Part shown: positions 2,941-51,830 of the stretch, in pieces | Layout: every line of letters starts with the position of its first letter | Position numbering within the stretch: position 1 is the first letter of the stretch | Assembly: GCA_001574975.1 (NCBI GenBank) | Contig: KQ965816.1 | Span: 1 to 64,000, forward strand | Direction of reading: 5' to 3' | Source: Gonapodya prolifera JEL478 | Taxonomy: Eukaryota > Monoblepharomycota > Monoblepharidomycetes > Monoblepharidales > Gonapodyaceae | DNA length: 64,000 bases | Program-made: the position numbers and the translations under genes | The notes under the pieces: generated by a model | The model's database searches: none | What the model saw: only the letters and a program-made list of their open reading frames with translations | Told to the model about the DNA's origin: nothing

Positions 2941-5750
2941 TTTCTAATGTAAAAATGCAGACGTCCTTAGTGTGGGTGACATGACTGCCTTAGTGCCTGG
3001 GTTACTCACAAGATCAAGCTTGTTGGAAACCCACAACTGATCAAATTGCGTCCTCATTGAATGGGTCCTGAAGAATGTGAGCAGGCTAAGAAATTGTTGA
3101 TCGACAATACTATTGGCCCTTCCAATAGTGATTGGGCATTGTCAGTTGTGTTGGTGCCAAAGGAAGACAGGAAAAGCTGTTTTATATTGATTATCAGAAG
3201 CTCAATGCAATCACAAAAAAGTATGTCTATCCATTACCACATGTAGACAAACTACTAGATGCTACACAGTGTGCTACGTTTAACACCGCTCTCATCATTA
3301 CATGGGGTTATTGGAATATTGTGATGGAGCCTTTGCAGAATCATTTAATGGTGTTTATCACACACAAAGGGCTTTACAAGTTCAAGCACATGATGTTTGG
3401 TATGACCAATGCCCTGGCAACATTCCAGTGTATGATGAACAGTGTCCTACATGGAATTAATTGGGTTTACACTTTGGTTTATCTCAATGATGTCCTTGTG
3501 TTTTCAAATACGTTTAAAGACCATTTGAAGCATATGGATGAAGTGTTTAAATGTCTTTGCGTGGCCAATCTTAAATTGCGTGTGGCCAAATGTTCATTTT
3601 GCCAAGCTGAAACAAGCTATCTTGGGCACATTATTACAAACAATGGGTTTATTAAAATGGATCCAAAGAAGATTGCAGCAAAACAAGACTTTCCTTGCCC
3701 TCATTCAATTTTGGAAATGCAAAGCTTTGTGGGCTTGACCAGTTATTATTGTCATTTTATCCCTTGGTTTGCAAACATTGCAGTGCCATACTCATCCATG
3801 GTCAATTGTTTGGAGGAACTTGATTGGTCCAATCCTAATGCATTGCTGGCACTCAAACAGTTGAAACAATTAATGTGTTTGGCACCAGTTTTGCGTCATG
3901 TTGATTATGCACATGCCATTTATTTTGCAAATGGATATGTCAAAGGTTGCTTTGACTGCTATTCTTAATCAGCGTGATGAGAATGGTTGTAAATATCTTG
4001 TTGGTGCAGCTAGTAAAAACTTAACAAAAGCTAAACAACATTGGGATGCCAGAACCCTGGAAGCCTTTGCAATTATTTGGGTTGCAAATATTTTTGGTAT
4101 TACCTTATTGGCATGCTGTTTAAATTGTATACCAATCATGAGGTGCTACATTTGATTTTATCCCCTGCCGCCATGGGAAAGATTGTACAATGGGCATTTT
4201 GCATGTCTGCATTCAACTACACGCCCCATTATAAGCTGGGGAAACATAACACAAATGTCAATCCTATTTTGCATGTCACGCCAGACAATTCACAAGAGCC
4301 AATGTGGCACACTGACATCCACTAACATGGAGTATATAGTGTAGTATGAGTGTTGGGTATTAGCTGCTGTGCCACTACTGTGGCCGCGGGTTTAGATGTG
4401 CACCTGCAGGACGTGCCCTAAGTTTGGCATTACGTTCCTGCAGGTGAATTCTATGCACATTACGTCTTGCTATGTACATCTGATCATAGATACACATTCC
4501 TACAGACTACAGGCTTGTGCAGCTCACCAAGGTTGTGTAGCACAATGGATCTTGATGTGGATGTTCCTATGTATGGTGACACTTTTCAACCAGATTTGCC
4601 ACCCAAAGCAGTTGGGACACAAGAAGAATTTTTGTTACCAGAGTTGTCTATCTTGCATGATGAAAAGGCTTGTCAGGCCACCCTTGAATTATTGGCAATG
4701 CACTTTGATGCAAACAAGGCTTTTACTGCCTGCGCATTTGAAAGCGCTAAGTATTGCAACTCTTGGATTAAAGATCAACTTAATGATTGCAACCTCTGTG
4801 GTATTATTGATGTGCTGACAGACTCCCTTCCACCTGATGCTGTGATTCATGTTGTTATATTGAAGCTCATATAAAGTCACGTGGCTATGCTATACACAAG
4901 AGTGCGTTGCATCTTGCCATTCTGCGTCATAAACAACCTGTTGGGATGCTCCCTAAGGGATCTCTTGGCAAATTTGAAGTTGTTGGTCACGGACCCATTG
5001 CTGTTCCTCATTGTCATAGGGAGGAAATATTGTGGTCACATCACAATTCAAAGATGGTGTCACACCATGGAATGAACCAATGCTTTGTTTGATGAAAGAC
5101 AAGTTTCATAGGCCAAAATGGGTTCAAGATGTTTGAACAACAGATTGGTCCATTTTGGATGATAGAACAAATTGGTCCAGTCACTTATCAAGTGATACAT
5201 ATTTACATGGGACATGAAGTGAAAGCTCATGTTCAACGATTGTGTAAAATTTTACCTTATACTGATATGTTTTCAGCATTGCTAGCTATTCCTGATGTTA
5301 TGAGATTGCCTGTAGATATTGATCTGTTGGTCAAACCAGGCGTCACAACTGAGGATGTTGTACCTACTCCAGCTGTGTTGAATGCCAATGGTGCACCAGC
5401 ATACAATATTGAAAAATTTTGAATTGTCATTTAAGTGGTGATTTAATGGAGTCCTACATTAAAATTTGTTGGTTATGCAATTCCAGAGTGGACAGAAGAG
5501 GAAAATGTTTTTGTGGATGATCTGGTACTTGTGTTCAAGAGAGGACATCTGTCTGGTCCTTGTGGATTTTGTTTATTAAAAAAGGCAGTTACTCAGTGCA
5601 AAGAAGGCTTGCTTGGAACACCATTATGAAGTGTACTTTGCTAATGAACAGGGCAAATGTATGCTGTTGATAAAAGCATTGTTGAAAAAGGCTGCAAATA
5701 AGCAAAATTGTGTGGCTTGTCATTTGCTTCCTCAAGGGGGGGGGAGAAGA
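2941..5750 (+). mobile_element. Ty3/gypsy retrotransposon, pol region (fossil)
   Basis: Order of parts: reverse transcriptase (about 3060-3840), RNase H (about 3890-4160), and integrase with its C-terminal GPF/chromatin-side region (about 4390-5420). RT marks are FYIDYQKLNAITKK, the FGMTNA block and a YLND box in the position of YxDD. The connection shows LGHIITNNGF and FVGLTSYYCHFIP. The C-terminal GPFWMIEQIGPVTYQV stretch is typical of gypsy integrase ends. Many interruptions are present, so the copy is well worn and broken. It probably predates the copia insertions to its left, judged by the greater decay. Confidence 0.88.
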
Positions 5751-14753: not shown

Positions 14754-16328
14754 CTATCGTATGGACACCAACTTAACAGCAACAGCCACGGCAGGGACAA
14801 CGATATCGCTAGTGCTCTCTGCCTCATCATTAGTGCCTGGCAACTCTTTGGCATTTTCAGTGGTCGTCGTCCATTTTGGCTTCGCGTTACCCGGTCGGCG
14901 TGACATTTTTCGCGCACGCCGATCCAAATGCGCTTCAACGTCCGTTAGTGACACACCCATACTAGCACATCGCACCAACGCAAAGTATATCAGGTCCGCC
15001 GCTTCCCACGCAACGTCGTTTGGTGTCTGAGCCTGGCAGAGTTCTTCCGCCTCCTCCATAATTTTGGATTCCAACAATTTCGAATCATTGAAAAGCCGCT
15101 GGGTATAGGACCCTGGAGGAGAGTTCTTTTTCCTACTCTGAAGGAGAGCGTCCAACGCGGTTATACCGCTGTCACCACCATAGCAAGTTCGGGTGTTCAG
15201 ATGACAGAAGCCTTCCGAATATAACATCGAAAGGAAGTCGAAACTCCGTCGCCTTATCTAAGCTGGTACAAGAACTCACCTGGCCCGTCTTGGTGCACCA
15301 TGAACCGCAAACAGTCCTTGTCAACATCCATTCGGAGTAACTTCTGAACGGCCCCCGATGTTAGTCCTTTAATCCAAAGCCCACGCGAACGGGAGTGGTA
15401 AACACCATTCCCACTTCGTATCGCTTCACTGATGCTCTTAACCGACGAATAAGCGACGCCAAGAGCAACACGTTGCTCATCCACAACTACAGTGGTGTAG
15501 AGTCCGTCCGAGCGATCCGTGACCAAGCATGAGCAGAAGGCATCGCCCACGTCAAGTTTTCCTAGCATAATAAAATAATACATCAACAAAATCCTGCTCC
15601 GAATTTAAGGAGAAATCCCCGCTCGACGCACCTTCTTCTGGAGACCCTATTGTAAGCATTGATGAGTCAACTAAGACATCTACTCCACTTTTATCGAGGG
15701 TCCCGACAAGCTGTGCTGTCGCAGGCAATTCGCCCAAACTGATTGCACAACTTCGGGCGAACCCATCCTGAGTTTTCGGCAAAAGTCCTTTCAAAATGCC
15801 TAAGACGTCCCGTGGAGACTCCAGCATAACGCTATGGCTACCTTTGCTTAGGTCTGCTTCTGGAGGAGACAAGCTGGTTGAAGCTAGTAAACCCAAAATG
15901 TATCCAGAGCAATGAGGGTTGCAAATGTCTATCCACTGCGCTGCAAATTGAGGCCCTCCGATCTCAAACGAAACAACAACTCTCTCTGATGGAAATCCAC
16001 GCAACAAGTCCAAAAACCCTTGAATATTCTCTGAAGAGGGAGATCGCGGAAAGGGAAAGACGAACTTCGATGCACCGGAGTCCAATGCCGTTAGAGCAAC
16101 GTCTCCAAGGGAGCCGCTACCTGCCGTTTCGTCATGTGCATCTGATTCGGTCCGTACCCAAATCGTGGCGTGTGGGATTGTCAAAAGTTCTTTGACAGTG
16201 GTGGTGAGCTGTGCCTTCGATGTCACCAACAGCACATCTCCAACAGTCTTGAGCTTTTCTAATAGAGAGCCGGTTCCATCGGTCTCATGCTCAAGCGAAT
16301 TGCGGATGTCGAGCTGTGGAATCAGCAT
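14754..16328 (-). CDS. his7: Histidine biosynthesis bifunctional enzyme: PRA-cyclohydrolase / PRA-PP pyrophosphohydrolase
   Basis: Second and third steps of histidine synthesis. The N-terminal exon (16328 down to about 15652) is the extra domain seen in fungal HIS4/his7 proteins. The cyclohydrolase domain follows with DRSDGLYTTVVVDEQRVALG, GVYHSRSRGLWIKG and, across an intron, GFCHLNTRTCYG, where the Cys/His metal ligands lie. The pyrophosphohydrolase domain ends the protein (LLESKIMEEAEELCQAQ, AADLIYFALVRCASMG). Introns: about 15573-15640 (GTGCGTCG...TGCTAG, joining SPEEG to KLDVGDAF) and about 15210-15281 (GTGAGTTC...CGGAAG). There is no histidinol dehydrogenase domain, so it is like S. pombe his7 and unlike trifunctional S. 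cerevisiae HIS4. Chibby lies just upstream on the same strand. Confidence 0.9.
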
Positions 16329-17211: not shown

Positions 17212-19759
<2,548 letters not shown>

Positions 19760-19916
19760 GGCAAGCAGTATTAGAACTTTATTTCAACTCCATTTCACCG
19801 TTTGCCCTCCCCGCTTCCGATTCTGCCATAATTTACAAATACGTACATGCAAAGCCTAGACAAAGACGCCATTTCAAGTCCAAAGTCATCAAATCAAAAC
19901 TCATGACATCCCATTG

Positions 19917-25048: not shown

Positions 25049-26776
25049 TCACCCCACCAACGGATCATCCCCTCCGGCAACCTCCCCGCCATACAAGTCT
25101 TTCAACCACTTCCACTCCCTTCGTCTCGGTCCTGTCCCTGCCCCTGTTGTCGCCAGAGCCTTGCGCACAATCCCCTTCTCCTGGCTCTTCTCCCGCTCCA
25201 GCTTGTGCGCTCGCGACCCATCAGCGCCCGCACCCACGAGCTCGTCCTCGTTGTCGTCAAACAGGGCGTCCAGAGCTGCTTGGGCAGGGTCGTGCCCCTG
25301 CTCGCTTTCGTGCGCTGGCGGCGACGACCAGATCCGCAGCGCCGAGATATGTTTCAGCGATGGTGGTGTCGGATATGCGCCGACTCTCCGGCGTGTGGAC
25401 GACCGCTTGGTGACGCGGTCGTCTTCAGCAGCCGGTGGCATTTCCAGCCGCCTTCCCTCCCCTTCCCCGCCTCCCACCTCGCCGTCCTCCCCTGCTTGCA
25501 GACCCCTCCGTCTGAGCCTCATACTCTCCTTCCACCTCGCGCGTCCACCCTTCTCCGTTTCAATTTCCGCGTCTACCCCGAGGGCAGGAGCAGGAGCAGC
25601 AATGCGTTTCATGTGGTGCCGGCCCGACCCCGTGAGCGAGGACGCGGACACGGCATAAAGGGGAGGCGTGGGTGCGCGGTCGTCGAATCGAATTTTGCGT
25701 TTGAGTGGGGATGAGGGGGCGGGTGTGTGGTGGGATGAGAGCGTGTGGGTGTGGGAGGTCGTGGTGGGAGAGGACGACGGGGAGGATGAGGTCGATAAAG
25801 AAGCGAGGAGGGAGGACGTAGGTGGAGGTGTGGAAGACGTGGGAAGCACGGGTGCGGGTGATCGAGAATGGGAGAAGTTGTCGAGGGGTTCTTGTTTGAT
25901 TGGTAGGTCGTCGGCTGGTTCGTCCTTGATTCTGTCGGTGTCTGTGGCAAGAAGGTGAAGAGGTGCGGGGGGATGGTCCACTGTTTCTGGTTTGATTCGA
26001 ACAGAGTCGCCTGTGGCGTCTGTTGCTGTTGGCTCTTGTTTTATCACGACGTTCAGATCGTCTGAGGCGGTCTCGGGCTTTACTTCCGGCTCGTGAATCA
26101 TACCTCCACGCAATGTGTCGCGATGTACTTCGACAGGTCGGACTCCGCGAGGGTCTCGGAGCACTGGAGTGGGAGTCGCAGGAATATCCGGAAGGGACGA
26201 CGTGAGGGGATCCACGTCGTCGTCATCATTATCTGCAGGGGCAAGGTGCTTCGCGATCGTGGGGAGGGACTTGGTCAAGTCGTATCTCCGCGGTCGTGCG
26301 TCGGCGAGGGAGGGCGAGGCGAGCAAGGAGTCGAAGTCGTCTGAGGACCAAGGCTGAAGTGTAGCGTCGTGCTCCGATTCACAAGCTGATCCTCGAGCAG
26401 CGGAAAGCGCCTTACGACGAAGCGAGGTGGTCTTACCGCCCAGATTATCGCTCTGCTCCTGTTCCTGCGTCTCGTCCTCCTCCCCAATGACGTCCGACAA
26501 CGCGCTGCCAAACACTCGCACTGGCCCATTGCGCACGTTCCCCCTGTCGACGATGATGGTCTCCGACTCGAGGTCAATGACGTCGTCGTCGTCGTTGTCG
26601 CCCATGGCCTCGTACTTTGCCCATATGGCCTCCCAGGATGCCTTGAGTCTAAGCACTGATGTGTCACGTGCGTTGTCGATGTCCTGCTGTGTGGGGTGTT
26701 TTGGCAGCCGCGGGCGTGCGGGGGGCGGATTCATGGTGGAGGGAGGTGCGGAGGACGACGATGCCGCAGTTGACAT
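25049..26776 (-). CDS. Acidic, disordered nuclear protein; Scm3-like N-terminal motif
   Basis: A single open frame of 575 codons. Near residues 45-85 it has LKASWEAIWAKYEAMGDNDD, VIDLESETIIVDRGNVRN. This resembles the 'W..IF.KY...DEIDL.TGEIVVD.GHL' motif that I associate with fungal Scm3/HJURP-type centromeric histone chaperones. The rest is low-complexity: DDDDD runs, several IKQEP/IKPE-like SUMO-consensus sites, Pro/Ser-rich stretches and basic clusters (RLRRRG, KRKIRFDD). The C-terminus, ALDALFDDNEDELVGAG, is also the part duplicated at 23061-23290. Codon use is GC-rich. The function is tentative, since it rests on one motif. It is divergent from SDHAF3, with a 231-bp shared promoter region. 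Confidence 0.55.
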   Translation of the reverse strand: MSTAASSSSAPPSTMNPPPARPRLPKHPTQQDIDNARDTSVLRLKASWEAIWAKYEAMGDNDDDDVIDLESETIIVDRGNVRNGPVRVFGSALSDVIGEEDETQEQEQSDNLGGKTTSLRRKALSAARGSACESEHDATLQPWSSDDFDSLLASPSLADARPRRYDLTKSLPTIAKHLAPADNDDDDVDPLTSSLPDIPATPTPVLRDPRGVRPVEVHRDTLRGGMIHEPEVKPETASDDLNVVIKQEPTATDATGDSVRIKPETVDHPPAPLHLLATDTDRIKDEPADDLPIKQEPLDNFSHSRSPAPVLPTSSTPPPTSSLLASLSTSSSPSSSPTTTSHTHTLSSHHTPAPSSPLKRKIRFDDRAPTPPLYAVSASSLTGSGRHHMKRIAAPAPALGVDAEIETEKGGRARWKESMRLRRRGLQAGEDGEVGGGEGEGRRLEMPPAAEDDRVTKRSSTRRRVGAYPTPPSLKHISALRIWSSPPAHESEQGHDPAQAALDALFDDNEDELVGAGADGSRAHKLEREKSQEKGIVRKALATTGAGTGPRRREWKWLKDLYGGEVAGGDDPLVG

Positions 26777-27007
26777 TGTTGAGAGGAGAGACAGAGGGAT
26801 GATTCTTGCGATTCGGCGTGCGAATCCGCGAGCGGTCGGGTGTTTCTCGCAGAAAAAGAGCGAGCAGAAAGATTCGTTGCCGAGTCGAGTGCAGATGAGA
26901 GAATGCGAGCACGTGCTGTGTTTGGAAGTCGTTGTGAGACTTGAGGTGAGGCAACCAAAGCAGCACCCACGAACTCACCTCCACTCCCCATTTTCTCTTC
27001 CCTGTCA

Positions 27008-27835: not shown

Positions 27836-29027
27836 ATGGAAAGCTCTTCCACCACGCTTCACCCCTCGAGTCAAAACGACCCACACCTGAAACGTCTCAA
27901 AACAGCCCTCGTGACCTGGATCAACGAAATCATGCGCGCTGAGGCGGAGGAAATTCGCGATCCCGTCGAGGACCTGGCGGACGGAAGCATCCTGCGCGCC
28001 TTCATGGGCAAGCTCACGGGCGTGCCCATGGAGGACTCGGGAATCGTCGGGTTGAGTCTTGTCGGTGAGTTGGTGCGCTCTGCGGGACTCGCCGTCGTTG
28101 TAGTACAACTTGAAGACCCAACCACCATCCAGCCAGACAATCCAAAGTCTCTTCGGCCCTCACGCACGCACGAACACACTTCGGTGTCGCTGGGGTATGG
28201 ACGCCAGAGGGAATTGTGTCCAAGGACCACGTTTCTGTCCTTTCGTTCCTCGTCGAGCTCGTCAGAGCAGTCAAGGCCCCCGTGGAGCTTCCGAGCAACG
28301 TCTCAATTGCGCTCATCAAACGGGAGGTGCGTTTTCACCTTCCGCTCCGTGCGGTCCAAGAAATATTACTTGGCTAACTCCATAACGTAGGACCTCGGCA
28401 ACGGCGACTTCCGCAACCGCACCGTGATCCAAAAACTTACCGGCAATGAAAAGCCCCCACCCGCGGTGGGAGAGTTCCTCGTGTCGACGCGGGACGCCTT
28501 TGACGAGCTGCTACTGGACGGGGCGCAGGGAAAAGCGGCGAAGATCACCGAGCTCATGATCCGGTTCGTCAATACCCAGTACGAGCAGACGGGGATGATC
28601 GTGGAGGGACTGCATGAGTTTTCGGATGGGGTGCGTGATGCAGTGCGGCTGTTGTGCAGCTGGGGTGTGTTGCAGGAACCGCACCGACACTGGCTCTTCA
28701 ACGTCATTATCCCCTACTTTCAGCGCTTCATCATCTTCCTTCTCGGCCACGTATGCGGGTTCTTTGTGCCCCTGTCTCACTTTCACGCTCGGCCAGCGAC
28801 TCGGCAAGAAAAACTTGAGAACGTCGCCGCCGCCATCGCAATCATGCGCGACTGGAACGCCGAAACAGCGCGACTACAGCCGTCTGAGATTGTTGCGGGG
28901 GAGGAGGTTGCGAGTGAGTGTGGCTTCTGGGGTGGGACTTGGTGTCGTGCTAACATCGGGGACCTCGTCGGTAGTTCTTCGGTGCCTCTATGCGATATCG
29001 ACGCTCGCGAGGAAGAACAAGAAATGA
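27836..29027 (+). CDS. Parvin homologue (two calponin-homology domains, ILK-PINCH-parvin complex)
   Basis: In animals parvins bind ILK, paxillin and F-actin at integrin adhesions. CH1 starts LKRLKTALVTWINEIMRAEA, then EDLADGSILRAFMGKLTGVP, and after introns SKDHVSVLSFLVELVRAVKA and LPSNVSIALIKRE, as in parvin CH1. The linker has RNRTVIQKLTG. CH2 reads AAKITELMIRFVNTQYEQTG and GLHEFSDG, then, after an intron, FFVPLSHFHARPATRQEKL (animal: YFVPLHHFYLTP), VAAAIAIMRDW, and the final exon ILRCLYAISTLARKNKK (animal: TLRVLYNLFTKYK). Start at 27836, stop at 29025-29027; about 5 exons. Exon joins at 28070-28200 are not fully resolved. It is convergent with the MyTH4-FERM myosin gene, whose stop lies 223 bp away. 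Confidence 0.85.
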
Positions 29028-29249: not shown

Positions 29250-32200
29250 TCATGCCGTCCGATTGATCTCCTGGTTCGAGCCAGCCCCCGCAGCCACGCC
29301 GCCCTGCTGTTTGAGATGATACTGCACGTACGAGTGGATCAAATCGGCTATCACGAAGCCTTGGTTCGTTTGACACCGGATCACGCGTTTTTGCATCATG
29401 TCGCCGATGCGCATTACGAATTCATTTTCGCTGAAGAATACGAGGGAAGTAATTATGAGCTCATCTCGTGCTGAAAGCTTTCGGCCGAGATTGGGTGGGG
29501 ATACTCACTCGTAACGGAAGTTGATGATCTCCTCGTACCCATAACTCGCCAGCACCGCCCGCGTTTCCGTATGCAGCACCTTAACCCCCGCAGCATCCAC
29601 GCAAATCATTCCTCCATTCGAGAAGCGCGGATCGTTGGATGCCCGAACTGTGAAAATGGAGGTCCCGAATAGCTCCCACAGTTTTAGCAAACTGATGAAC
29701 TGGTGTTTGGCCTCGACCTCCGTAAGCGACTGCACACTAGAAAAAGCCCGTATAAGGCGCAAGTCGATTTCGTGCGGGGGAGATGTTTGCGACCATGCTT
29801 TGTACAGGATGGTGGGGATGAAGCGACGTAAGACCCTAGCGAACATGTGTGACCGTCAACGCTTTAGGGCTGTTCATCATAAAGTACTCACTGCTCTTTT
29901 GCACCGTCGGTCGAAATCTCCGAGACTGAAACGTGGATTCGAATCATCAATGCCAGCACTTCCATGACGGTCTCCATTCGGTCATACTGCAGCTCTCTTG
30001 TGCTGAAGAGGACGCCGCTCAACACGTCTCGCTTCACTTGGAAGTAAACAAGATTCGTTAATGCTTCCGAAGCGTCTGGTGCCTGTATGGGAGACGTTCG
30101 GAGAAAGTTGTTACGGGCTGCTGTATGTCAAGATGACCCCTGCATGATGGCGACGTACCTGCGTCAACCACAGCTTCCTGCAGAATTCAATCTGATACGA
30201 AGCCTTCATTGACTGTTGAGCTCCAGATGAACCGCTCTGCCCTGTCTTCGAAGACAAATCGGACGGTGGATTTTCTATGCCCACCAAGAGGTCCGATAAG
30301 TACACGATATCCATCATTTTGTCCGTCGGCAGAATTGGTAAAGCTACTTGGTCCTTGACGCGGACGTACAGTCCGAATTCATTGTCCGCGTCTGAACCAA
30401 TGTCAAACTTGTCCTCGACTTTCCGAAGAATGTCCTTGCAGACCGTGTGCGAATCGTACAGGAACGTTTTTGAGGTCTCTTCGGGGAAGGTGACTTTGAT
30501 GTGCATGGGTTTTCTGCTCTCGATAGAGAGAATTTCGTCTGGCTGCGGCGGTAAATTTCGAGGACTGGATTTGGTCCTCGCGAGTCTCGTTTCACACTCT
30601 TGAGCAGTTGCACCGAATTCCTTGCTCTTCTCTGCAAGTAAGAAGTGTCGCAGATATGGCTCCATTGTGTTTGAAGAGCAGAAGAATGTGCTGCAAATTA
30701 GCATGAGATCCCTACGAGTGTAATTCTCTGACTCAGCAAGAATCACAAAGTGCTGGTGACAATATTTCACCTACCAGGTCTTTTTACAGCTGTCACTATT
30801 TGTGTACAGAAGTTATTAAATGAGGTGCAGACAGCAAAAAACATTCTGTTGCGAGGATCTTACCCTTTCGCACTCTTGCAGTTGGTGACTTGCTTCACCA
30901 GCTGAGAATAAACCTCGTCCCGGAGCATATCATTTTGAAGCGATGTATGCACCACAAACAAAGCAGCTTGTGCGCGTGGTTTCTTTGTTGGGAGGTCTCC
31001 AGAGTACATCCTTGTGAGAAAACGAGGCTCAGCGAACATGAAGGTCCTGCTGAGAACGATAACCTTACATGATGTGCTGAAACAGTTCTAAAGCCATACG
31101 GATATCAGCTGGATTGCCAAGCTTGGTAAGGGGTGTTTTGAGAGGTCCCTAAATTTTCATGGGACTTTTTGTTATCATTCCTGAACACTGAGGCGACCCA
31201 ATAAAGCCTCTACTCACCGATTGGAACTGAATTCTATTCAGCAATTCTTTCGCGTCCCATACTGGCACGTCTTCGTTCTCGGTCTTGTCACCTTTGGCCA
31301 TGGCTGTGAACTTCATTCGGAGCGTTCCGGTCAAGGTCGCTTTGATAGCTTGGACTGTGCTCTTTTCAACTTCGAAATACCGGCGAGCGTAGTTGACAAA
31401 CGAAAATCGTTCGTCTAGCGGTTCGTTTGGTTGTGATTCAATCGTGCTTTCCTCAGGGGCGCCAGGTGCAGGTGGAGGCGATTCTCGGATGACCTTCTCG
31501 AGGTCTTGAGCCTTTGCAGCAGCAGCAGGCCTCAGTGGCACTTTTCCGTTTTCATCTGGTTCCACAGGGTCTAACAACAACTCCGCATATTCGATGGGGC
31601 TGGGTGGTTGGAAAGGAGTTACAGAGTTCCCCTGAGGAAAGAATCGAAACGGGGTACTTACAACCACCCGTCCTTCCCTCGAACAACGCCGCGACACCAT
31701 CCATTTTCAGGGTCACGTTCAAGGATCTCCAAAAAGTCTCCTTTTCGCAAACTGAGCTGGTACCCTGCAGTAGCATTGAAATCGTGAAGGGCAACTGCCG
31801 TGTTTGACATCTCTTGCAGTGGTATGATGTAAGAGTTAATCGCATCTGCGACTGCGAGTCCCTAATTTGTGCAAGCTGTAAGAATAAATAAAATGAGGGT
31901 GTGTCGAGTCTGCATGCAGTCACCTTAACCGAGAATACGTGTTCTTGCTCATTCATATCAACCACCAATGTATTTTTGGTCGCTTGTTTGACGACAAGGT
32001 CATCATACTTGCACGACGCGGCGAGCGTCGGAGAAGACGCGTCCGTCCCGTGAAGAACATGGCAGCCACGATGATCCACGCAAAGGAGCAAGTTTTCCAA
32101 AAAGAAATTCGGTGAAGTTGCACGCCATTGTTGAGAGAAATAGAATACCGGGGAATCTAAAGCAACTTCAAGGACGCGCAGTTTATCACCAGTTGCCGCT

Positions 32201-35200
32201 GTTTCTTTGATCGTTTCGGTATCTTCAGGTGACCAGAAGCTGCAATTAAGGTCGTCCATAATCTGTGTGAAAGTGAGATTGACGTCGAGCTCATCATCGA
32301 ATCGCTGGCTTGGAAGAATGAATCCTTTTCGAATCTCCAACTTCCATGGATGACTTCCGACGTCTGTTGCGGATGTCCCCTGTAATTCGATTTTCGCAAG
32401 AACGTCAAGGAGGTAATCGTAACCTTCGAGTCTGTGAACTGTCAAAATGGTGACTATTGACACCCATCAGTGAAAGCAATACGCAAATATACCTTCGGGT
32501 CCACTTTTCACAACAAGAACATATCCAAACTCTTCGTTTGAGAGACCCTTCTCCAAAACGAGACTCCTTACAACTTCTTCCGCAATGGTAGTGTTCTCCG
32601 CTTCGAATACATGCTGGGACCCATCAACAAAGCCCGCTGCAAGTAAGATTGGCCGACCCTGCTCTTCTGCAGTGAGCTCCACCGATGAAATACCGTTTTT
32701 TCGACATCCAAACATGTGAATTCTCGTGAGCTGACGTTGCAACCAAGGACGGTAGTCTTCCGGAGCAACGGAAGAAATGTGGTCAGGAAGGAATTTCATC
32801 AATGGGCCAGAAGGTGCGACGCAAGAGAGTAATAATCCAAGTAATCTCCATGCGCGTGGAGCCGCTGGACCAATCGCTTGTTTGCAAACTTGGCACAGCA
32901 CTTCGTCCTGCAACATCTGACTATCAGCCACCTTTCTGACAATGTAATTGACGTAATGAAAGGCGTCCGACGTTGATAATGCCTTTGTTCGCACAAATTG
33001 GGTGACAACCTTGTAAAGCTCAACTGAAAGTGCAGAAAGATCAGGGGAAAACTTATGCAGGGAGGTCTTCAATGGTCCTTTCGTAAACTGTAATGAGTGT
33101 CCGTCTCGGAAATAAGCTCTGGCGTACCGAGAGAGGCCAGTGCTTGAGCCTACGTTTTCCGAAGACTTGTTGGGGTCGCCTCGTATGGTTCCCCGACGCG
33201 ACTGCGGAGCTGAGCCAGCCCCAGGTAGTTCAGGAAGATCCACTTCACCGGCGGAAAGTTGTGGATCCTCTAGCTGGCTGAGTTGTAGGAATTCTTCGCT
33301 CTCAAGAGGACTGAGCATTGGATTCGTCCAGTCTTGAATCATCTTCTCAAGCTCGTCAGGAAGAGCACAGCCATTGAACGATGCCCGCGTTCGTTTTAAT
33401 CGTATAGTTGCCTTCTCACTTCGCTTGTCTTGGGAAGCTTCTAGATATTCCAAAAGCTGTTTGCGGCGTAACTTTTCTTCTTCAGGGAGTCCTTCCATAT
33501 CATCCAATTCTTCGGGCTCTCCCGAAATTGTTTTGGTATGACGGGTTCTGGTAGGGAAGTCTTGTCTAGGATCACCACTGGATTCGCCATTTTGGTCCGC
33601 CACCTTTGCCGTTGAAGCTTCTTCCGCGAGTTGAGCTGCCTCTTCCTCCATCCGTTTTATTTCCTCTTCTAGCTTAATTGCTTCATCCTCCTCTTCTTGG
33701 CGCTGTCGCTCTTCTTCTTCCTGCGCCAGACGAATGGCCTCTGCTTCAGCCTCGCGAAGAGCGGCTCGATGAGCAGAAAGTTGCTCTTGGTAATCTTTGC
33801 GCACTCGAAACCCGCGCCATCCTATGACACCAAAACATTTGGTTGGCGCATATGTGGACCTCATGAGTGAATTCAGTGGACGTTCACTTACTTGCTTGAC
33901 ATTGGATGATGCCCTTTCTGAACGTGTCTCGCCGACTCCGCGTGATAACCTTTCGAGCGACTGCGGAAAAGATGAGCATTTTGGTGTCAGTTTATCATCA
34001 CACAACCTCCAGCATGTACTCACATCGTTGAATGACTCCCGTAGAATGAATTGTCCTCTCATATCTTCTCTGACACACAACCATACGGGCAAATGCTTGA
34101 AGCTTTATGACATACGCAACAAGTGCAGTGGCGCGCAGACTTTCAAGTTTCGTCTCTACGTTGCTCTTCATAAACGCCTGAGAGCAGAAGAAGTCAGGAA
34201 GAGCCACGAAATTCAAGCATTTCTTCGAGATTACCACCTTACTGTTCCCGATGCACCAATTACTCTGTAACTCTGGTCCTCCGAGCTCCAAAATTCTCTT
34301 GCAAGCATCACGAACAGGTAGTTCTGCAACTTCGCGAGAAAGAACACGATACCTAGGGAGAACCAATTATGATAATGAGTCCTCTCAGAAGACCAAGGCA
34401 CTAGTTGTACACACCGGGACACAAGATCCTCGAACTTTAGGAGCAAAAGTCCAAGGCCATCAAAACGTTGTCAATCAAGTAACAGCGCATCCTACGAACC
34501 TTGATTCGAATTGAATATCCGGCTCGTCGCACTTTGATAGTTTCGAGCATTCCGGAGTACCTAGGTGAGGTCAACGTCATATCATGCGAAACAGGTCAAA
34601 CAAAAGGTACGATTTGTGAAGCACCTGAGCTGGTCCAAAACCATTTGTGACTCAATTAAAGCAGCGCTTTTGGCCTTATTCGGCTTGACGCAACGAATAA
34701 AGTACGGGTTACAGCCACTGAGCGTTGTAACGAGCTCTCCCAATGACTGGTTGAACTGAGCTCCCAAAGTGGGCGTCTTCTTTACTCGCACAGTCCCTGA
34801 ACTTGATGGCATTTTGCGCGATACAGTTCCACTACTAGGTGCGCCTTCTGCGTCCGATGTTGCACCACGGAATAAATCCGCTACAAAAGAAACATCACTG
34901 GAAGCCAAGAGATCAAGAAGGTCTTGCCGAAGAGTGTCTCGATTTTTGTCAAGAAATCCATCAATGACATATGACACTGTTCCCGCAAAGTGCCTTTGAG
35001 CAACAGACGTAAAATTACTGGTTTTACAACACCATAATCGCAATAAAATAGTCACCTTATACCAAATGTTGACCCAGACGTCTTCGCTTTGACAAAGTAG
35101 CTATCTTTGGCGTGGTTGTTGTTGAATTTGGCGAGGAGAGCTGTTGGTGACGGGGCAGCTCTGTTAGGAACCCCACAGGAACAGAAATATTTTAAAAACG

Positions 35201-37568
35201 AGTAACTCAACAGTTATCAGTTCCCTTGGGAAAGTTGCTCTCTTCGTCAAGAAGTGACAATAAACCGATCGGTTTTTTACATACTGTGAGTTTACAAAAT
35301 GCCAGTTACGACAAGTCAAACCTGCAAAGAGGCACCACTTACGAAGATCGATACACGGTTGGTTGTCCACAAAGTCTATGGACTGCCAAGCTGGGGATAA
35401 TTGATAGGACGTCATTCCGTTGGAGAACGCCACTGTGAAAATCCATTGATGAGCAACTCACGTATACTCTCCCGTTGGTACTCCTCCTGCTCCAGTTTAA
35501 ATATCTGAAGGTTGAAAAACGACTGAAGCTTCTCATTCGCTAAACTGACAGGCGCAGTAAGTATCATTGGAGTCCGTCACCCTGGGGTTCAAAACAAAAC
35601 GGTCTTACTTGATGCAAAGTTGCTCAAAACTATTTGTCTCAAAGTCCTCAAATCCAAAAATATCCAAAACGCCAACGGAAAGAGAGCTATCTTTACTTGT
35701 CGTGGTATCGTTGATGTAGGACACAATCCAACTGAACATCCGAGAATACAGAGCTTTACAGATATGAAATGGATTCTTATACTGCCGATGCTTGTGAGAT
35801 AAAGACGAAACATACTTTTCGCAAGAGCGTCTCTTGTATCAATTGCCTGAGCTGTCGTCAGAGGCGTCACAAACAACTCTCCTCTCGTAACTTGCGAGCG
35901 GGACGTCAAGAGGGTTTTCAGCTTTTCCTTGTCGACTCCGATCCAGGGGGCAATGCAGTCGACCACTTCATTTGATTATCCTTTCATGTCAATGCATGTT
36001 TCAAGAACAACTGGTCGAGGGTTCTTCACCTTCAGAATTGACAATCTCGGCTTGTTCATCCTTTTCAGGTGCATTTTGGACCTGGACATTTCCCAGATGC
36101 AGTATACTTGCCAAGACACGGAAGATGTACTTCTCTTGGTCGCCGAATTTGAGTGTATGCATCGCATCTTTTATTTGACGGTAATCTGCACACTCGTCCA
36201 CACCCGGAATGCTGACACAGGTACTTCGAGAAAGATAGTGGTAGCTGGATGGCGGACCCAACTTGTAAAGTTCTGGAGTCGGTCACGGTGAGCTGAACAA
36301 CGTGAAATGTGCCAGTGCAGAGACAAAACTCGAACCTTTCTCATCTGCACTTGCGCCTGCAAGAAAGCTGTAGAACACGTGATAAGATCGTTCGCCATTA
36401 GAAGTGCTCGTGATTCGTGACTGGAATCGTGAAGTTAAATTGAAGGGATCGATTGGTAAAATAGCAGAATGATTGCCCACCTTCTCCAAAAGATATTCCA
36501 ACGTCCTCGCTCCACAAATCGATCCATCCCCACTAAATTGAACCTGGATAAACTTCCCGAATCTAGATGAGTTGTCATTACGGACTGTTTTCGCATTGCC
36601 TGGCATAGATTAATGTCAGGACAATGCCCTCGCACCACCCAATATTCATTCAAATGAGAAGCTCACCAAACGCTTCTAGAATGGGGCTGGCGTCAAGAAT
36701 TTGCTCCTGGACAAGTGATTGTTTGGTGGACATTGCCGCGAGATACTGAAGAATAAGTTTTGTGGATTCTGTCTTCCCCGAGCCTGACTCCCCACTGTCC
36801 ATACGAGAGTCGAAAGAATTAAACCGGCGTCAGGAACTCTGGTCTTTCCGAGAATGTGCGCACCTAATGACACAACACTGATTCCTCCTCGTCTTCAGCA
36901 AATTGTCGTACGCCTCATTTGCGAGTGCGAAAATGTGAGGGGGGAGTTCGCCAAGAGATTGTCCCTTGTATCTTCGGACGCATTCCATGTCGTAAATCGG
37001 AAGTGCCCTAGGGAACACAACGTAACTTGACACGACGAGGATGCCGCGGAACAACACCAGAACTCACCGATACGGGTTCAGGGCAACAAGAATGTTCCCT
37101 GTGTATGTGTATATATCCCCCCTCTTGTACCGTAAAGACAAATTATGGAATAACGAGCTTTCATTCAAATCGGACAAGGTGACCATGTCGTCCACTCCTG
37201 GAAGACGAATCACACGAATCACCCAGAGTATGAGCTATGGACGAGCGATAGACGAGTAGAGAGACTCATAAAAGCGCACCATTTACTGAAGTGGAATGCA
37301 TGGAACGTGTCCCTGCCTCTGGAGCAGACAATCGCTCCCCGAAAAGGGTCTCTCCAACAACATTGCTCGCGTCCTTAGATACGACCTGGCGAGGGGCACA
37401 ATACGTGAGCGGTAGCGTCACGCTTTTCAGCCGTGCGGATGACTCGCAGTTGCTCCAACTTCGAAATCGCCTTGGGCGAACCATCGCCAGTCTCCACCCG
37501 TGATATCGGCCAGGGCCATGTCGTGACGAGCCAACTGACGGTCGAAGGACTCTGCCTGAGAGGTTCAC
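29250..37568 (-). CDS. Class VII-type unconventional myosin (motor-IQ-helix-MyTH4-FERM-SH3-MyTH4-FERM)
   Basis: Actin motor of the filopodial/adhesion type. The motor begins near 37270 with [20 protein letters not shown] and [14 protein letters not shown]; the P-loop [10 protein letters not shown] lies near 36790; switch-adjacent [15 protein letters not shown] is near 36570. Motor exons run to about 34260. IQ motifs follow ([32 protein letters not shown]), then a charged helix (about 33790-33600). Tail: MyTH4-1 (about 33150-32640, [22 protein letters not shown]), FERM-1 (to about 31810), SH3 (about 31810-31650, [19 protein letters not shown]), MyTH4-2 (about 31450-30870, [25 protein letters not shown]), FERM-2 (about 30600-29250, ending [16 protein letters not shown]). 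Stop at 29252-29250. About 25 introns. The first exon (37568-37270) is open but not family-like at its start, so the start codon is uncertain. Divergent from PI4K-III-alpha. Confidence 0.9.
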
Positions 37569-47025: not shown

Positions 47026-47210
47026 GAAATATATTTCTCTGATACTGCTTCATTCTTGTTTGATATGTTTACGTTTGATACCCCATTATATTGCACTCTC
47101 CACTGAGTTTTGTCTCGTGAGGAATCCGAGCACGGAGATGGTGCGTGCACCCTCGACCGCAGCAAAAGAAAAATCTTTACACCCACTTGTCCCGCACCCG
47201 CAGCGACAGG

Positions 47211-48981
47211 ATGGGCAAGGACGCGGACTCTGCAGTCTCAGCAGCGATGGACGAACTCGCAGTGGGTCTCATTACTTGCATCGTCTCTTCCATCGCCCAC
47301 CCAATCGTTTCCCTCCAGACCCGCATCTCGCACCACGTGGCCGCATTCGACTCTCTGGTATCGCTCATTCCGCCTGCATTTTACATTCCGAAGAAAGAGA
47401 CGGCGGACGACGACGCGGGCGGACGGTTCGCGCACAACAAGAAGCGGAAGGCGCCCAAGCAGGACGTCAAGGAGGCGACGAAGAAGGCGAAGAGGGCACG
47501 TGTGAGTGGTGGCAGTAGGAGAATGACGAGAAAGACGAGAAGAAAGCTGACATGGCACGACTTGGGTGGCGGCCGTTTCAGTTGGATCCAGATAATGCCA
47601 AGACGGTGCTGGATTTCCAGAAGGAGGAGCTCCAGAATCGCAAAGCCGCACCAGAGGACGATGACGGTAGCGATGCGAGCGAGGACTACGAGTCGGCAGA
47701 CGACATGTCCGATTCAGACACGGAGGAACACACCGAACCGCCCACGTCCCATAAAACCGACCCCACCCGCCCTTCGGGCCTTCCCCCCGCCGCGACGCCC
47801 TCCGACCTCCGCGCCCGGTTGCAAGCCCGCATCGCACAACTCCGGGCCAAACGCAACGCATCTCCCGTCACCGAAGCGCGGCACGGATCCCCCAACTCGC
47901 GCGAGTCCTCGCCACGATCCAAGGACGACCTTATCCAAGCGCGCAGGGTCAAGAAAAAGCAGGAGAAGAAGGCCAAGAAGGTTGAGGCGAAGGAGAGGAA
48001 GAAGGAGGGCAAAGGTGGTGCTGGTGCTGGTGCTGGTGCGGGGGTCATGGGTGTCAAGGTCGAAGGACCGGTCGCGAAGAATGGGAACGCATCTTCGTCA
48101 TCCTCGTCATCGTCACGCCCGGCTCCCATCGCAGACGACCTCTCATTTGGCGCCCTGGCTATTCCCACCACCGCCACTGGCACCCCATCCTTCAAATCCA
48201 CCAAACACAAAACCACACCCACATCATCCACATCCGCGTCTCAACAACTTGTCAAACTCGCCGCGCAACGCGCCAAACTCGACGAAATGCGCGACCGCGG
48301 CGAGTCGGACAAGGCCGACGCCATCGAGGAAAAGGCGAAGTGGACAAAACTGCAGGCTCTCGCGGAGGGGGAAAAGGTCAAGGATGACGCCAAGTTGTTG
48401 CATAAGACGGTTAGGAGGGAACAGAAGGCGAAGCAGAAGAGTCGCAAAGAGTGGTGCGTATTCGTGTTGATTGGGGATTGTGGGGGTTGCGGAGTGTGGG
48501 TGTCGGGGTTTTGTGCTCGGTTTGGGTAGGTGGAAAATTTATGGTGACGGGATCAAATGATCGCAGGGAGATCGAAGCATTGATACCTTTCCCGACCGCG
48601 ACTCATATTTTCATCGCTCCCAAACAACACACTTCATCTCACTTTCTCACTTTTCCTTTTTCCCCCCCCCCCCATCTGTCCACCAGGTCCGCCCGCCACA
48701 CCACCGAAACCCACGACCAAAAAGAGCGGCAAGCCAAACGCCGCGAGAACATCGAGCTGTACCGCAAGAAGGGCGGCGCCGCGGGAAAGGCCCTCAAGGC
48801 CGCCAACAAAGCAAAGGCCAAGGCGCAGGGGAAGGTGGGTCTACGTGCTTTTTGTGGTGCTGAATTGTAGGCGGTGGAGCTGATCAATGCGCTGCGGCTT
48901 GGTGTCGGTTAGAAACCCTCCCGGCCTGGGTTCGAAGGAAGCTTCTTGCAGAAACGCGGCAAGGGAGCTGGGTCAAAGTGA
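47211..48981 (+). CDS. RRP14: SURF6/Rrp14 family nucleolar protein
   Basis: Ribosome-biogenesis factor of the nucleolus. Exon 1 (47211-47501) has the Rrp14 N-terminal domain: HHVAAFDSLVSLIPPAFYIP and a basic tail. After an intron (47502-47581, GTGAGTGG...TTTCAG) comes LDPDNAKTVLDFQKEEL, the joint seen in Rrp14. The middle is acidic then Lys/Arg-rich, with a short GAGAGAG run and a serine run. The SURF6 domain proper is ALAEGEKVKDDAKLLHKTVR, SRKEW, then after an intron (48453-48686, holding a 12-C run) HDQKERQAKRRENIELYRKK. The final exon reads KPSRPGFEGSFLQKRGKG, with the diagnostic RPGFEG, and stops at 48979-48981. Confidence 0.9.
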
Positions 48982-49229: not shown

Positions 49230-51830
49230 CTACTCGTCATCATCTTCTTTCCCCGGCGCGTAATCGTCATCCTTCTCCTCCTCGCTCTTCTTCTCCGTCG
49301 GCTTCCGCGCAACTTGCTCGTGGGACTTGTTCTGGAACACGTATGACACAACGTCATGCGAGGACTTGTTCAGTACGATATCCGCCACCTGCACCGGTGG
49401 GACAAAAAAGCAAAAAGCAAAGTCAGACACCTTACAACCCCAAACCTCCACCCATCGCTGTTCCGTGCAGTATCTCACCCGACTCAACTCCATCTGACTG
49501 ATATGATTCCACTGACTCGTATCCGCCGCCGACGCGCCCGCATTGATCTGGCCCTCGGGCGGCGCACCAGCTGGTGGCCCTTGAAGCACCGCTTGCACTT
49601 GAACTGGTCGTGCGTGTCGCAGAGCGTGATCGCCCGTGTACTGGAACAGCTGGCGCAGGTTCTCGAGCGAGAAGTGCCGCGCGACGTTTTCTTCTTCGTC
49701 CACCACGCATGAGGAGAGGCATTGTTTGTGGGCTTGCCTGGAGGACGTTGGGATAGGCGAATGTGGTGGGTGGGTCCTAACTTTGGACAGTGGAATCATG
49801 GAGCACCAACCGTTGGAAAATCTTCTCTTCAAGGGTCCCAGTCGCAATGAAGCGGTAGATGTAGCACGTTTCGGTTGACCCTCCCTCCATACTCGAGCGA
49901 GCGCCTGCGCGTCGTTGGCGGGGTTCCAGTCATGTCGGCAGGGCAACAACTGTGAGCGATCAAACATCTTCAATAATATCACGAAACCGACAATTCACCT
50001 GCATCAAACAGCACCCACCTGTTGGCGCCAATCAGATTCAGCCCACAGCCACCTGCTTTGCTACTCAGCAGGAAGATGAAATCCTGTTTGTTCTCATTAT
50101 CGTTCAGTTTCTCCACGAGTTTTCCGCGCTTGCTCACTCTCATGCTGCCGTCCAGGCGAAGGCAGCCCCACCGACGTTCACGACAGAGCCGCTCAAACAG
50201 GTCCAGAGTCTGTGTGTAGTTGGAGATCAACACAATCTTGTCGTCGGTGGTTTTGCGAATCATTGTCAGCATTCGGTCAAGAAGAAGCTTGGGATGGAAG
50301 TCGTGAGTCGGAGCTTCAGGCTATCTGAGAGCACAACACCAATAGTATTGAGCTCACCATCTTTCCCGAAAGCACCGTTTGTATCGCCTTCGGGTCGAAT
50401 CCCGGGCGAAGAGCCTCAGCTAAATCCTGCAGGTCTTTCTCTTCCAAGAGTGCTGGGTGGTTACAAATCTTCTTCAGTACCGTGATAGCCTTCAACGGTT
50501 GAGTTCCCGCAGAGCCATCAAGAAGCCGCTTCATAACCTCGGACGTGGAGTAGTGTTGGTAGAGCTGGTGCTGTGCTGGTGTGAGACGGCAGAAGACGAC
50601 GTGTTCGTACTTGATGGGGACTGTTGGTGATGTGAGGACCAAAATCGGAAGTGGAGGGAGCAGACCAACTTACGGTACTTGGTAAGAAGCTCTGCCGTTC
50701 TCCTGATGATGAACTTATTCGCCACGTCCAAGAGCTCCCGTAATTTCCCCTCGCTTGCTTCCCTGTCCTTATCCGAGGCCAGGGCATCACGACCACGCAA
50801 AATGGGCAGTTCGAAGTTCTTCCGAAACTCTTGCGCGGTTCCAAGAAGACCGGGGTTGGTGAATTCAGGAGGGAAAAATACTCTTTGAAGAGAAAGAATC
50901 ACGTGTCGGGATTGTTAGTCCCCAACGGCATTTCAAACTATTGTTAAGGGGGCGAATTACCAGTCAAGTCGTTCTGAATTGGCGTCCCGCTGAGAATGAC
51001 CCGTCGCTGCGCTTTCAATCCGTTCAGGGCCTGGTACGTTTGCGATTCCATATTCTTGAGTCGGTGACCTTCGTCACAGAGCATAAGTCCAATTTCTGCT
51101 TTTTGCAGAACCGGAGTACAGGTACGAAGCGACTGTAGGAAATAATGACTAAAGACCATTCCACTTCCGGTTATGGTCCATAGCTCGAAACAAAACACAA
51201 GCAGGCAACATACTTGGTGCGGCTACAGTACGGCCTTTGGCGACACACCACTGCTGGAGGTGTTTTGTCAACTCCGCTTTCGACTCCTTGACGTCACATA
51301 CCTGCAAACCCAAGGCGATAAATGCATTCAGTACCGAGGGGTACTAAACCGATTCGCATGACGTACCAGACATGCAGCATGTCCGCTCAGCCATTTTCAG
51401 ATTTCTTTCGCCTAGTTCTTCACCAAACTACTTGGACATGCCACGACAACCTTATCGACCGTCTGTTTTCCAGGGTTGGGCGATTGGCGAAGCAGAGTCC
51501 ATAACAGAGTGATACATGGAGCGTTTTACCCAGACCCTGAAATCATGCGCCGCGATAACAGGTTCTTTGATGTCGGCTTAATAGGGGACCAAAACGGAAC
51601 CCACCATCTCATCCGCCATACTGCATCCGTAGGAGCCTTCCTTTTTGCGACCGGTGGTACACTCGTAAGATGCGTATGGTTACGGCATACCGAAAAGCTT
51701 TTTGCTCACGAAGAAATGCTGTAAACTGTGCCCTCCAAATTATTTTCGAGGTCCTTCTTGTCAGGCCACGGGAACTGTTCTGAAAAAGGGCACACTGGCT
51801 GTCCCCAAGAAAACTACGTCCAACGAACAC
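49230..51830 (-). pseudogene. RAD54: RAD54 homologue (SNF2 DNA translocase), apparently broken
   Basis: RAD54 remodels DNA in homologous recombination. Recognisable in order: YECTTGRKKEGSYGCSMADEM and GLGKTL (about 51660-51520), [13 protein letters not shown], the DEGH box in [12 protein letters not shown] (near 51070), [109 protein letters not shown]. Breaks: two in-frame stops near 51395-51412 (after SSLVKN and AKEI), one-base losses near 51529 and near 49873-49878, and an apparent pair near 49570-49640. The part N-terminal to motif I is worn, and its remaining length would have to overlap the plus-strand SH3 gene. Either a pseudogene or an error-rich stretch; the C-terminal half of the motor is well kept. 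Confidence 0.7.

Follow-up and report, generated by a model that had tools for sequence, protein, structure and literature searches.

A MyTH4-FERM myosin gene with an SH3 domain between its tail units on a contig of the fungus Gonapodya prolifera

The occurrence of a myosin gene with a MyTH4-FERM (MF) tail in a fungus raises the questions whether the gene is intact, whether it is native to its contig and to which myosin class its motor belongs. The window, i.e. the whole 64-kb stretch of DNA that was analysed, is eukaryotic and intron-rich, and an initial annotation had placed a complete myosin VII-type motor with a MyTH4-FERM-SH3-MyTH4-FERM tail at 29250-37568. Taken as a whole, the evidence presented below makes it quite probable that an intact gene at this locus, belonging to a fungus that diverged early and is probably zoosporic, encodes an MF myosin with the ancestral amorphean motor-IQ-MF1-SH3-MF2 layout and a putative role in protrusion and adhesion.

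Exons were joined by eye, guided by splice signals and homology. This yielded one intact gene on the minus strand (37519..29250) of 31 exons and 2107 codons, with no internal stops. All 30 introns measure 54-82 nt; 29 are of the GT-AG type and one, which attaches exon 1 (37447-37386), is a tentative GC-AG intron. The phmmer alignment with VIIa begins at residue 16 of the myosin, within the region ahead of the motor. The annotated locus was thus confirmed as a gene, except for its upper end, as the coding start lies about 50 bases inside 37568. An ab initio gene finder based on splice-site and codon statistics predicted 27 exons, close to the 31-exon model, with a score of 84-92, compared with about 7 or less for all other predictions in the window; having been trained on the myosin gene itself, it provides a consistency check that is not fully independent. 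A pseudogene was rejected on the integrity of the open reading frame. The features of the gene are as follows:

29250..37519, minus strand, whole MyTH4-FERM myosin gene (stop-free spliced model; the gene finder gives 29250-37186)
37284..37519, minus strand, short N-terminal region ahead of the motor, residues 1-58 (spliced model)
34166..37195, minus strand, myosin motor domain, residues 61-729 (Pfam and motif positions)
33784..34114, minus strand, lever with three IQ motifs starting at residues 751, 774 and 795 (motif scan)
33604..33801, minus strand, Glu-rich charged helix, residues 807-872, about 65 residues (composition and charge pairs)
32710..33078, minus strand, MyTH4 domain 1 (Pfam MyTH4, 8.7e-16 on ORF 32467-34104)
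31814..32682, minus strand, FERM1 with an F1 lobe, a much shortened F2 lobe and an F3 lobe (phmmer to VIIa/VIIb MF1)
31572..31804, minus strand, SH3 domain, interrupted by the intron 31661-31600 (Pfam SH3_1 and SH3_2)
30531..31148, minus strand, MyTH4 domain 2 (Pfam MyTH4)
29304..30512, minus strand, FERM2 with F1 (RA_2), F2 (FERM_M) and F3 (PTB-like) lobes (Pfam; VIIa MF2 5mv9, 133 bits)

In the spliced protein Pfam Myosin_head was complete (E 2.7e-238), and the strength of the Pfam domain matches excludes chance. Because the P-loop (GESGSGKT, 152), switch I (201), switch II (DIFGFE, 423) and a glutamate at the TEDS site (Glu 372) have all been retained, the motor should be an active ATPase which, according to the TEDS rule, is predicted not to need phosphorylation of the head. 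The three IQ motifs of the lever were obtained by motif scan; Pfam reported a single IQ match that stayed below the cut-off (E 0.0036). The segment that follows is composed of 30% Glu and 17% Lys plus Arg, and contains 12 opposite-charge pairs at i,i+4 spacing versus 7 in shuffled sequences, 12 being attained in 12 of 1000 shuffles. It is possibly a single alpha-helix.

Behind the motor, the IQ motifs and the charged helix, the tail is arranged as MyTH4, FERM1, SH3, MyTH4 and FERM2. Pfam identified two MyTH4 domains (7e-40), two RA_2 domains corresponding to the F1 lobe of FERM (5e-19), SH3_1 at 1437-1482 (1.7e-11) together with SH3_2 (1.5e-8), FERM_M at 1881-2000 and a PTB/IRS-type F3 lobe at 2013-2086. 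This order agrees with the full motor and tail of the initial annotation, with the qualification that FERM1 is reduced. FERM1 is atypical in that its middle (F2) lobe is mostly absent: no FERM_M was found in it by Pfam on the spliced protein, and the spacing between matched landmarks of F1 and F3 amounts to 94 residues, compared with 175 in FERM2, which makes the F2 lobe about 80 residues shorter. A missed intron as the cause was rejected, the region lying inside one uninterrupted exon (exon 22). The two MF units show detectable relatedness, and they align colinearly with MF1 and MF2 of myosin VII. For MF1 the scores were 81/73 bits with VIIa/VIIb MF1, 41 with Dictyostelium Myo7 and 28 with class X; for MF2 they were 133/126 bits with VIIa/VIIb MF2, 54 with Dictyostelium Myo7 and 32 with class X. 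The combination of a retained SH3 domain and a reduced FERM1 in a fungal MF myosin may be new. In FERM2, the columns aligned to R2176 and K2179 of human MYO7A, which we take to be the R-x-x-K autoinhibition residues, are occupied by Q and V with a K-R pair between them, so that an R-x-x-K motif is not present at this position. Conservation of the lock between FERM2 and the motor is uncertain because of these substitutions.

The surroundings of the gene bear on its origin. The neighbouring genes are:

14754-16328, minus strand, HIS4-like protein, a PRA-CH and PRA-PH fusion in which a region of about 265 N-terminal residues precedes the domains
18312-19783, minus strand, poly(A) polymerase, closer to the yeast than to the animal enzymes (bit scores)
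25052-26974, minus strand, open frame of 641 codons with an Scm3 centromere-protein domain (E 2.3e-12)
27838-28910, plus strand, parvin homologue, tail-to-tail below the myosin gene (alpha-parvin the sole PDB match)
47121-48467, plus strand, Rrp14/SURF6-type ribosome biogenesis protein (PF15459, E 1.7e-18)

The poly(A) polymerase fragment scored 273-276 bits with the S. pombe and budding yeast enzymes versus 227-231 bits with those of animals. The N-terminal region of the PRA-CH/PRA-PH protein presumably resembles fungal HIS4; none of the minus-strand frames over the 3 kb downstream yielded a histidinol dehydrogenase domain. Because the poly(A) polymerase, the HIS4-type fusion, Scm3 and Rrp14 are fungal in character, a fungal origin is indicated, and the contig fits an early-diverging zoosporic fungus. 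Elsewhere in the window a reverse transcriptase (3132-3965, plus strand; RVT_1, E 2e-20) probably belongs to a retroelement, and a predicted protein at 49230-50534 on the minus strand was interpreted by eye as the C-terminus of a RAD54-like SNF2 helicase, with no Pfam match on ORF 49233-49994. The tRNA and Rfam scans of the 64-kb window gave no match. The parvin homologue, in a rough gene model, matched alpha-parvin with 48 bits (E 1e-11; PDB). Parvin and other IPP proteins occur in basal fungi that do not have integrins (PMC5042518).

That the contig is a contaminant had been considered in the initial annotation, and it could be extended to a recent transfer of the gene from an animal or an amoeba, as MF myosins are, according to the literature, typical of Holozoa and Amoebozoa. 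However, fungal-type genes flank the myosin on both sides, the composition shows no break, the identity of the motor to animal VIIa is just 50% and 30 short introns are spread across the gene. Relatives of the motor were not found among viral and prokaryote genome contigs. Given the fungal character of the neighbours contamination is unlikely, and contamination and recent transfer taken together are very improbable. The gene is thus regarded as that of the fungus, and it remains to place its motor. Class X was rejected, as Pfam found no PH domains on the spliced protein and two MF units are present versus the single one of class X. Among solved structures (PDB) the motor ranked VIIa first with 681 bits, followed by X (657), XV (636), V (559) and II (554), and its identity was 50.4% to VIIa, 48.4% to X and 47.7% to XV. 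A tree was calculated from six motors, with one sequence per class taken from the PDB alignments; class XXII and the holomycotan class XV motors lie outside the comparison. In this tree the motor grouped with VIIa, X and XV against V and II at a node with a support of 98.4/97. The motor therefore firmly belongs to the MF clade. In the best trees of these six motors it was placed beside VIIa plus X, or with XV, and was not paired with VIIa. For these six motors, motor-domain phylogeny, which the initial annotation had proposed as a check, bears out the MF clade; its best trees do not contain the pairing with VII, although this pairing was not rejected.

If the gene were a genuine fungal orthologue of class VII, the separation of VII, X and XV would be older than the parting of fungi and animals and would not date to the holozoan ancestor, with later loss in most fungi. 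VIIa indeed gives the top PDB scores for the motor, MF1 and MF2 and the highest motor identity, the SH3 domain sits in the position that it has in class VII, and the stretch ahead of the motor resembles VIIa (MHPTSVHGVEDM). The tail order MyTH4-FERM-SH3-MyTH4-FERM of class VII was found as well, but it is common to other MF classes and not diagnostic; in the literature an SH3 domain between the MF units is part of the ancestral amorphean architecture and not a class VII marker. Against class VII, trees in which the motor was paired with VIIa were 2.9-7.8 log units below the best tree (AU p 0.05-0.40, four models), which with six motors and XXII outside the comparison is at most a weak rejection, and Sebe-Pedros et al. 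limit class VII to Holozoa and reclassify similar amoebozoan proteins (Sebe-Pedros et al. 2014, PMC3942036). A class VII orthologue is on balance unlikely, and the label 'myosin VII-type' was not sustained. A class XV-type myosin, as published for Gonapodya, an aphelid and nucleariids, is a tentative possibility. The tree uniting the motor with XV next to VII plus X was among the two best under all four models (AU 0.61-0.82, six motors), and the class XV set of one recognized FERM, an SH3 and two MyTH4 domains (PMC3942036) fits the degenerate FERM1. However, the pairwise score and identity are below those of VII and X, and, with a single XV sequence in the tree, the two divergent motors might have been drawn together by long-branch effects. 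The tail traits of class XXII, i.e. two MyTH4 domains, two FERM domains and an RA-like F1 lobe after the first MyTH4 (RA_2), were all encountered. For the Gonapodya motor, class VII is less likely than class XXII or class XV as these are published, because XXII and XV have already been recorded in chytrids and their relatives.

Class XXII was described in the chytrid Spizellomyces punctatus in the same study that restricted VII to Holozoa and in which an ancestral amorphean MF myosin, in some cases with an SH3 domain, was inferred (Sebe-Pedros et al. 2014, PMC3942036). Class 22 was reported from several fungal lineages (Kollmar 2017). Torruella et al. (2018, PMC6299283) record both XXII and XV from the aphelid Paraphelidium and XV also from nucleariids and the chytrid Gonapodya, with loss among the remaining, non-chytrid fungi. 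The literature also agrees with the absence of MF myosins from Dikarya as stated in the initial annotation. Its proposal that the gene pushes class VII back before the fungal split is not supported, since the best six-motor trees contain no pairing with VIIa. As regards MF myosins in general, most of the evolutionary novelty has already been published.

How such a myosin could act is suggested by its Dictyostelium counterpart. In Dictyostelium Myo7, charged residues of FERM2 keep the tail on the motor, parallel actin built by VASP frees the motor, and pairing mediated by the tail then starts filopodia (PMC8352590). By analogy, the Gonapodya protein would be an actin-based motor that its FERM2 tail keeps folded; upon meeting bundles of parallel actin in the cortex of the cell, it might open and then pair. 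Its MyTH4-FERM and SH3 domains could carry or hold membrane and adhesion partners, which would promote adhesion and filopodium-like protrusions of zoospores as they crawl. Zoospore motility of aphelids is reported to involve filopodia and to be chytrid-like (PMC6299283). Filopodia or an amoeboid stage, suggested by the presence of the myosin, are plausible. A complete, intron-rich MF myosin gene with an SH3 domain backs the published view that an animal-like machinery for protrusion and adhesion was kept in early fungi and lost in Dikarya. The myosin and the adjoining parvin gene provide two concrete targets for work on the crawling and adhesion of zoosporic fungi.

Of the known systems, class XXII of Spizellomyces punctatus and other fungi likewise has an MF-clade motor in an early fungus. 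Compared by description alone, it carries an RA domain between the first MyTH4 and FERM1 and its SH3 is unmentioned, whereas in the Gonapodya myosin FERM1 is reduced and an SH3 separates the two MF units. Animal myosin VIIa/VIIb is identical in domain order and ranks first among PDB structures for the motor as well as for MF1 and MF2; it differs in that the best trees leave the two unpaired, in the F2 lobe that is largely missing from the Gonapodya FERM1 and in the R-x-x-K columns. Class XV shares two MyTH4 domains, an SH3, a well formed second FERM and a weak first one. Animal class XV carries a long N-terminal extension, which the Gonapodya myosin does not have, and the identity is the lowest among the MF classes compared. 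Dictyostelium Myo7 (MyoI; class XXV or class-22), the tail of which is similar to that of the Gonapodya myosin at 40-54 bits, much weaker than animal VII, is a filopodial myosin with an MF-SH3-MF tail.
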